NCBI RefSeq assembly: GCF_003721435.2
Contig: NZ_CP054585.1
Location: 2,232,001 to 2,296,000 of the forward strand
Direction: 5' to 3'
Length of the DNA: 64,000 nt
DNA from: Halorubrum sp. CBA1229
Lineage (GTDB): Archaea; Halobacteriota; Halobacteria; Halobacteriales; Haloferacaceae
Shown here: piece by piece, positions 12,766-31,050 of the stretch
Numbering within the stretch: position 1 is the first letter of the stretch
Layout: each line of letters opens with the position of its first letter
Translations under genes and position numbers: made by a program
The notes under the pieces: model-generated
The model's input: only the letters and a program-made list of their open reading frames with translations
Told to the model about the DNA's origin: nothing
Databases searched by the model: none

Positions 12766-13270
12766 GGGCGTTGTTTATAAGTAAACGAGAGGTGTTGCAA
12801 TCGGCTGTTTATAAACAACGACGACGCTGCGGTGAACACCGCCAAAGCTCCAGCCGCTCGTTGATACGTCGTTGCTGACGAGACGACGGTGAAGCCCTCC
12901 AAAGCCCCAGCCGCGAGGACGGCGCACGCTCGCTGCGCTCCTCAGTCGCTCGTTTCACTCGCTCCCTGCGGTGCTTACCTCGCCTGCGCCGTCCTCGCGG
13001 CTGCCCCTTTGAGTCCCACCCGACCATCGGAAGACGGTCCTGCTCGCTCACTGCGTTCGCTGCGCGGACTGCGACTTCCGTGCTCCCGCTCGTTCCACTC
13101 GCGGGACCGCAACCGCATCGCACCTCACGCCTCCCCAGCCTCGTCGCTCGCTCGGGGCTCCCTTCGGTCGCCCACTACGCTCGCGACTCCCTCGCGCGTG
13201 CACCTCGCGCCCGCCGAGGGCGGACGCTCGGAGGCACGCGCCACCGCAGAGCCGTTTATAAGCAATTAGC
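12766..13270 (+). repeat. Hairpin-rich dispersed repeat element, copy A
   Basis: This fills most of the gene-free stretch 12630-13437. It starts with TTTATAA motifs and 57-bp phased units (CAGCCG at 12851 and 12908), then a structured core. Arm CAGCCGCGAGGACGGCGCA at 12908-12926 is perfectly complementary to 12985-13003. A third hairpin lies at 13207-13227 (9-bp stem with one mismatch, loop GAG). It ends with another TTTATAA at 13253. Long open frames across it arise from the biased GC composition and are not believed to be genes. The remaining 13271-13437 shows only an AT-richer leader. Related copies are at 18.9 kb (inverted) and 30.9 kb. Confidence 0.85.
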
Positions 13271-18700: not shown

Positions 18701-19305
18701 AATATTTTATAAACGACTGAGCCGGTGCGGCGGCGCGCGCCTCCGAGCGGTCGCCCTCGGCGACCGCGAGGAGCACGTGCGAGGGAGTCAGTCGTCCGGA
18801 GCGAAGCGGAGGACGACTGACGAGGCTGGGGAGGTGTGAGGTGCGGTTGCGGTCCCGCGAGTGGAACGAGCGGGAGCACGGAAGTCGCAGCCCGCGCAGC
18901 GAACGCAGTGAGCGAGCAGGACCGTCTTCCAGCGGTGCTGCGCGGGGCGGGGCTCAAAGGGGCAGCCGGGAGGCGGGCGCAGGCGATGTAAGCACCGCAA
19001 CGAGGGAGCGAACGTAGTGAGCGACCGAGTGAGGAGCGCAGCGAGCGTGCGCCCGCCTCCCGGCTGGGGCTTTGGAGGTGTTCACCGTCGATCCGTCAGC
19101 AACGATTTATAATCGAGCGACCGGAGCTTTGGGGGTGTCCACCGTCGCTCCGCTGGCAACGATTTATAAATAAACGACGGGGACGTCGGAGACATTCGTT
19201 CCGTCTTCAGGAGTCATTTATAAGTAATCAAACGGCGATCGGCCGATCGACAGCAACGAATAATAACCGATCTCCACTTGAGCGATCACTTATAAATCGC
19301 GATCC
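18701..19305 (-). repeat. Hairpin-rich dispersed repeat element, copy B (inverted)
   Basis: This fills the gene-free stretch 18617-19319. Main arm CAGCCGGGAGGCGGGCGCA at 18963-18981 is perfectly complementary to 19048-19066. A second hairpin at 18787-18821 has an 11-bp perfect stem (GTCAGTCGTCC/GGACGACTGAC) around a 13-nt loop. A third at 18747-18767 has a 9-bp perfect stem (GCGGTCGCC/GGCGACCGC) with a 3-nt loop. Two 57-bp units (from 19070 and 19127), each with an ACGATTTATAA box, follow; further TTTATAA motifs lie near 18706, 19217 and 19290. No gene is supported here. Confidence 0.85.
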
Positions 19306-30689: not shown

Positions 30690-31050
30690 ATAATTGAGTG
30701 ACGGCTCGGCGGTGACGGCTTTCGGATTCCCAGCCGCCCGCTTATAAATCGTTGATCGTGGCTTGACGGTGAAAACCTCCAAAGCCCCAGCCGTGAGGCG
30801 GGCGCACGTTCGCTGCGCTCCTCGTCACTCGCTTCGCTCATTCCTGCGGTGCTTACGTCACCTGCGCCCGCCTCACGGCTGCCCCTTTGAGTCCCACCCC
30901 GACCGCGCCCCGACCGCACAGCCTCACGCCTCCCCAGCCTCGTCGGCCGGCCTCCGCTTCGCTCCGGCCGGCCGACTCCCTCGCACCGGCGGCTCGCGGC
31001 CTCCGGCCGCTCGCCGGGGCGCGCCACCGCGTCGGTTGCTTATAAATCGC
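30690..31050 (+). repeat. Hairpin-rich dispersed repeat element, copy C
   Basis: This fills the gene-free stretch 30660-31181. 57-bp phased units (CAGCCG at 30731 and 30788) carry a CTTATAAATCG box. Main arm CAGCCGTGAGGCGGGCGCA at 30788-30806 is perfectly complementary to 30863-30881. Second hairpin: 30942-30952 pairs with 30966-30976 (GTCGGCCGGCC/GGCCGGCCGAC) around the 13-nt loop TCCGCTTCGCTCC. Third hairpin: 30996-31010 (GCGGCC/GGCCGC, loop TCC). It ends at CTTATAAATCGC near 31038. Same orientation as copy A. The rest up to 31181 is the thyA leader. Confidence 0.85.

Follow-up and report, generated by a model that had tools for sequence, protein, structure and literature searches.

Dispersed intergenic hairpins of haloarchaea keep a G-rich fold on nearly free stem sequence and may form a family of REP/PATE-like DNA elements

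Two kinds of dispersed repeat come closest to the elements described here. The PATEs of Haloquadratum walsbyi, as presented in the passages of PMC3119063 that deal with them, are haloarchaeal, non-coding and scattered, with copies that number from tens to hundreds; they carry palindromes near their ends and no terminal inverted repeats, are heterogeneous in sequence, and often host inserted small mobile repeats within their palindromes. The elements of our study resemble them in these respects, probably also as regards terminal inverted repeats. REP and REPIN sequences (PMC3116915, PMC6006769, PMC3733652) are likewise extragenic, abundant and randomly spaced, show compensatory changes and form inverted doublets, which in our material occur in haloarchaeal genera other than Halorubrum; one of their strands is recognised, and here one strand is preferred for folding. 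RAYT subclasses have not been reported from archaea (PMC6006769), so that a REP-like system in the present case must use another partner or none.

The window, that is, the whole stretch of DNA that was analysed, covers 64 kb of a Halorubrum genome of 3.58 Mb, at positions 2232001 to 2296000 of its contig C1. This contig is 3.22 Mb long, and the second one, C2, measures 0.36 Mb. A sequence-only reading had pointed out three dispersed copies of a perfect 19-bp stem in gene-free spacers, with variation at stem positions 7, 12 and 13 compensated on the opposite arm. Direct reading of the arms at all three sites bore out the coordinates (Table 1) and the compensation, and the elements are intergenic, as claimed. 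Among the neighbouring genes, element 1 has one of the NMD3 family, element 2 a chlorite-dismutase-like and a universal-stress gene, and element 3 thyA. The strand quoted in that reading is the opposite of the functional one; its G-rich complement folds best.

Table 1. Parts of the three elements in window coordinates
Element	Feature	Position	Strand	Remarks
1	Incomplete 57-bp unit			Further upstream than the complete unit; TTTATAAG at 12774-12781
1	57-bp tandem unit	12843-12899	+	Upstream of H1; supported by the 57-bp spacing of CAAAGCCCCAGCCG genome-wide
1	H1	12900-13011	-	112-nt hairpin holding the perfect 19-bp stem 12908-12926/12985-13003; folding strand minus
1	Linker	13012-13021	-	Reads GGGTGGGACT on minus; holds the conserved GGGNGGG run on the 5' side of H1
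1	Optional hairpin module	13030-13115	+	GGAAGACGGTCC..GGGACCGCAACC; most copies do without it
1	H2	13143-13187	+	Variable palindrome GTCGC..GCGAC
1	H3	13194-13242	+	Terminal hairpin; conserved tandem TC/TC mismatch (GA/GA on minus)
1	TTTATAAG	13255-13262		After H3
2 (inverted copy)	H3	18733-18780	-	
2	H2	18787-18821	-	
2	H1	18955-19074	+	Perfect 19-bp stem 18963-18981/19048-19066; folding strand plus
2	57-bp unit	19075-19131	-	
3	Degenerate 57-bp unit	30723-30779	+	
3	H1	30780-30889	-	Perfect 19-bp stem 30788-30806/30863-30881; folding strand minus
3	H2	30942-30976	+	
3	H3	30984-31026	+	

On the quoted strand, an element starts with a TTTATAA-rich stretch, followed by 57-bp units ending in CAAAGCCCCAGCCG (1 to 5 copies, also in elements outside the window), H1, the linker AGTCCCACCC, the optional hairpin module, CCTCACGCCTCCCCAGCCTC, H2, TCCCTCG, H3, CGCGCC and further TTTATAA; neither a coding sequence nor terminal inverted repeats were seen in the elements. 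The 19-bp stem is only the middle part of H1, a rod-like hairpin of about 112 nt that reads CAAAG CCC CAGCCG ... CGGCTG CCC CTTTG on the quoted strand. Its outer closure, CAAAG/CTTTG, is followed by a step that is an unpaired GGG/GGG on the complementary strand, where, inside the 19-bp stem, short covarying helices are split by tandem G.A steps and a GNA-type triloop closes the rod. The corresponding strict motif, NN-GA-NN-GNA-NN-GA-NN, has seven occurrences in the window, always within elements and always on the G-rich strand, compared to 0 or 1 in shuffles. Among 117 stems of type A, pairing is perfect in 77 and interrupted by a single mismatch in 28; a second stem type (B) has an internal loop. 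The 101 distinct H2 sequences comprise 27 different 9-nt arms, with 93% Watson-Crick pairing.

The complementary strand also carries the GGGNGGG run in 88 of the 104 distinct Halorubrum copies, with A, G, T or C as N, and in most of the 28 copies from other genera, the conserved layout of G residues being GGGNGGG…GGGG[H1]GGGG. Three unpaired G residues per side, flanked by two covarying helices, are odd for an ordinary internal loop. A rare variant, seen in L042 and L049, has GGG in place of CCC in its 3' foot, so that the foot is fully paired.

The compensatory change first noticed in three copies is real throughout the genus and the order, and lies well above the controls with shuffled columns and slid partners. 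The alignment used (A2) holds 38 gapless H1 copies, its rows having been picked for a largely paired outer stem; a mixed H1 alignment, four rows of which have flipped interiors, was set aside. In A2, 98.4% of the cells are paired and 22 of 39 pairs have changed on both sides, and the covariation score of 0.334 exceeds all 500 shuffles (0.126 ± 0.007), slid partners reaching at most 0.057. Furthermore, RNAalifold arrived unaided at the same H1 structure. The cleanest evidence comes from inner helices 3 and 4, because the selection of rows did not use them: eight of their ten pairs vary on both sides, with 98 to 100% of the cells paired. The absence of covariation in a larger alignment, which the sequence-only reading had named as the outcome that would speak against it, thus did not occur under our own shuffle and shift controls.

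Over the whole hairpin, pair tables of the G-rich strand yield 32 G.U against 6 A.C, an asymmetry with p of about 2e-5 if the counts were independent, which is indicative only, the copies being related. Since C-to-T changes are equally likely on either arm, the excess of G.U identifies the G-rich strand as the folding strand. The folding z-scores agree in direction, both for H1 of element 1 (-8.0 on the G-rich strand versus -6.8 on the other) and for the whole of element 1 (-4.4 versus -1.8). Taken by itself, the outer 19-bp stem shows nearly equal wobble classes (13 versus 16 of 2223 cells), uninformative on strand, which suggests that a second, strand-blind process, for example hairpin-templated repair, may keep this stem perfect; the wobble count of H3 is dominated by one linked position. 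The structure of H1 is under constraint, and its fold is strand-specific on a stem sequence that is nearly free.

Copy number and range were measured with a covariance model built on H1. In the genome under study, the 94 matches fall at about 91 places, every one of them on C1; C2 has none, where about 9 copies would be expected (chance of none, 6e-5), and the family is essentially confined to the chromosome. The copies lie on both strands with Poisson-like spacing (gap CV, 0.94), and a replication-polar signal was rejected, strand runs and spacing being random. All 22 same-genus genomes examined carry the element, and in a pattern scan of named genomes all but one of the 80 loci listed belong to Halorubrum, the exception being an uncultured archaeon. 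The search across haloarchaea that the sequence-only reading had proposed found the element, under strict filters, in 88 of 146 genomes sampled from the order, belonging to 38 of 56 genera, some genera of the same family being without it, and the number of copies per genome ranges from 0 to about 90 between genera. In a phylum-wide control, none of the 164 genomes outside the order matched, and all 22 matching genomes lie inside it.

Across ten genomes from eight families, the stem arms have little sequence in common, and in families other than that of Halorubrum they are unrelated to the Halorubrum arms. The 13 pairs beside the feet are 97.8% Watson-Crick in this cross-genus set (48.5 ± 2.1% when shuffled), with 4 G.U and 0 A.C, a figure that may lean somewhat towards pairing because the copies come from a model that rewards it; the phylum control indicates that the model does not pick up such hairpins by chance. 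An internal core of roughly GACGNAAGCACCGCAG ... GAGGAGCGCAGCGAG is kept across genera, the feet AAGGGGC and GGGGCTT occur in 28 of 28 copies from other genera, and GGGNGGGA[C/A]T lies just 5' of them in most. Several other genera carry H1 as inverted pairs around a linker, and such doublets are not the rule in Halorubrum.

The suggestion that the family is undescribed agrees with Rfam: at the gathering threshold no family matches the elements of the window, in which a tRNA is the only match, and at a relaxed threshold five element loci give only weak, sub-threshold matches to miRNA hairpins. No description was found in the open-access literature. Carriage by viruses or plasmids was rejected: viral contigs gave no exact match, phages gave no match, and plasmids gave a single weak one, on the 196-kb NZ_CP134951.1 of Halobaculum (about 177775-177864), where it is flanked by genes for a MaoC-family dehydratase and a sugar transporter.

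Elements are gained and lost at orthologous positions. Three orthologous intergenic sites have the element in many Halorubrum species and lack it in others, sometimes close relatives; the usp site has it even in species between which the adjacent gene shows no more than 81 to 83% identity, so that positions can be old. Both flanks match a copy of the genome under study for 18 of 135 foreign copies, with the same orientation in 17; L042 and L101 share an orthologous site and have the element in opposite orientation. At orthologous sites, the hairpin sequences often differ throughout. Whole hairpins, in turn, are exchanged between loci: L009 and L159, from two species, have identical H1 at unrelated loci, and since the identity ends at the feet, hairpins are copied or converted as modules, which supports the copying process put forward as one explanation of the stems. 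Moreover, in 4 of 157 copies (L119, L132, L153 and L160), the interior is flipped between its feet, which points to hairpin events at the DNA level. Neither ends nor target duplications could be defined between species, the nearest species with an empty site being too diverged.

The hairpins are also hosts to insertions. L063 carries an insert of about 58 bp formed by twin hairpins, between the H1 positions CTCGCTG and CGCGCTTC, and its ortholog L137 offers a clean empty site with no target duplication. Similar modules of about 50 to 60 bp and several sequence types, with variable, self-complementary stems and triloops in both orientations, were observed in L013, L048, L054, L059, L062, L064, L066, L070, L075 and L077, and one seems to lie inside the end of an IS200/IS605 element (L296, about 1270-1360, compared to L295). 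At the thyA site of G004 (L201), H1 is cut down to the base CCCCAGCCGTGAGGCTGCTCCTTTG, as expected for a hairpin deletion. In L055 (G000:C1:530500-533800), a tnpB-like gene of the IS1341 type directly follows the element, an arrangement kept in L123 and L194.

Stems that change freely while shape, core and G-runs are kept imply that the folded strand is read, by a protein or by some other process. The explanation we prefer, with confidence about evenly balanced between belief and doubt, is a REP/PATE-like family of DNA elements, old, distributed through haloarchaea, non-autonomous and dispersed between genes, the folded G-rich strand of which would be recognised in trans. When single-stranded, this strand would fold into the GGGNGGG run, a short outer helix, the unpaired GGG/GGG, a long and nearly free duplex and the apical G.A core, and a putative trans-acting factor could recognise it as folded single-stranded DNA, by analogy with REP/RAYT and IS200/IS605 systems. 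Such recognition may allow the element to spread and to be renewed, and hairpin-templated repair could be one reason why the arms stay nearly perfect. This reading is favoured by the covariation of H1 and the pairing of stems across genera, by the excess of G.U on the G-rich strand, by the roughly 91 randomly spaced copies on both strands of C1 with none on C2, by the frequent location between convergent genes (40% against a 16% background) together with the random orientation between co-directional ones (43:38), by presence and absence at orthologous sites, by differing hairpins at sites with both flanks orthologous, by the identity of L009 and L159, by the interior flips, by the REPIN-like inverted H1 pairs and by the lack of matches in viral contigs and phages, with one weak match among plasmids. 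It is weakened by the retention of positions between diverged species, which also fits a host function, by ends and target duplications that escaped definition, and by the searches of 29 Halorubrum genomes, which turned up no mobilising protein for the element.

In particular, the Y1 transposase (PF01797) gave one match in the genome under study and is absent from 7 of the 29 genomes, and G002, G004, G005, G015, G017 and G018, although without it, have 17 to 27 scored element matches each. Reverse transcriptase (PF00078) is found in none of the 29, control genomes being positive, and retro-copying of the SINE-like, retron or DGR kind was therefore rejected. Descent from IS200/IS605 was rejected as well, the element profile giving no match to eight Halorubrum TnpA loci; an apical GA-tandem motif shared by those loci and the elements was seen by eye only.

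A serious rival, though a less probable one, is that the elements are a multicopy structured non-coding RNA of a new kind: the G-rich strand would be transcribed, and the folded RNA would bind protein, act in regulation or protect the 3' ends of mRNAs. A core and loop sequence conserved while stems covary freely across eight families, covariation in excess of the column and shift controls, the stronger folding z-score of the G-rich strand and the GNA triloops and tandem G.A steps confined to it in the window are what such an RNA should show; the strand-specific preference of G.U over A.C is equally expected for RNA. However, the TTTATAA boxes around Halorubrum elements lie at variable distances and form no consistent promoter, the orientation relative to co-directional neighbours is random (43:38), the copy number swings widely between genera, and the flipped interiors would place the complement in the RNA. 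A distinctly improbable alternative is an immobile cis-element of the host, with hairpins serving as attenuators, insulators or nucleoid-protein sites and spread and homogenised by homologous recombination. The conserved positions and the restriction to the main contig fit it, and so does the gene context, 40% of 176 placed elements lying between convergent genes compared to 16% of other gene pairs (p = 2.5e-11; gene calls from a simple codon score, not from annotation). Yet 60% of the copies lie elsewhere, the distribution is patchy within a family, nested insertions and large differences in copy number better suit a parasite, and a plain attenuator needs neither a conserved core nor G-runs.

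That the perfect arms reflect no structural selection, and result merely from template switching in replication (quasi-palindrome correction) or from inverted duplication, is highly improbable. Hairpin flips do occur, and the 19-bp stem has very few mismatches and nearly symmetric wobble classes, as this explanation would have it, but it fails on the covarying 2-bp helices between conserved G.A mismatches, on the kept core, on the invariant GGG/GGG and on the 32 G.U against 6 A.C; for the inner helices it is largely refuted, and the process may help to keep the outer stem perfect. A more specific proposal concerns what is read. Because three unpaired G residues per side stand between covarying helices, it can be hypothesized, as an unlikely reading, that the G-rich strand is a quadruplex-duplex hybrid and the recognition unit of a class-wide element outside the known families; the upstream GGGNGGG would dock on the unpaired GGG/GGG step, and the long hairpin would be one loop. 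The haloarchaeal cytoplasm contains molar K+, which would favour a quadruplex fold. If true, this would explain the invariant G-runs, the varying N between them and the nearly free stem sequence.

A family with up to about 90 copies per genome, distributed across haloarchaea and missing from Rfam, would be a large unannotated component of these genomes. Free stems with kept pairing, core and G-runs offer many natural variants with which to probe what is read in the fold, the family provides a test of whether quadruplexes matter in cells living on molar potassium, and Halorubrum genomics gains markers for hairpin exchange and nested insertions.

Each of the described systems differs from the elements in some respects. 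Membership in the PATEs fails, as tested here, on the resemblance to IS605 ends, since PATE palindromes match the ends of IS605-type transposons (PMC3119063) and our elements match none of the eight TnpA loci; moreover, the passages on PATEs in that source contain no account of nearly free arms with strict covariation, a core and G-runs. As to REP/RAYT, copy number, spacing and extragenic location agree, whereas membership fails on tag and enzyme: REPs measure 21 to 65 nt and bear a GT[AG]G or CGTC tag, in contrast to about 100 to 120 nt with GGGG feet here, the foot being AAG-GGG-C in all 28 copies from other genera, and they go with a cognate Y1/RAYT gene, for which there is one Y1-family match here and none in several element-bearing genomes. 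For MITEs, which share terminal inverted repeats with a resident transposon and have target duplications, the comparison is less sharp: no terminal inverted repeat was seen here, and species comparison offered no clean empty site. The SMR-A repeats of Haloquadratum are short, make no target duplication and insert into palindromes, like the insert that distinguishes L063 from L137, with about 110 bp against about 58 bp; this likeness concerns the nested inserts and not the element itself. The multicopy structured RNAs of Rfam share covarying stems around conserved loops, and none of them matches the elements of the window at the gathering threshold. Dispersed extragenic hairpins are already known; what has apparently not been described before is a class-wide fold that combines G-runs with free stems.
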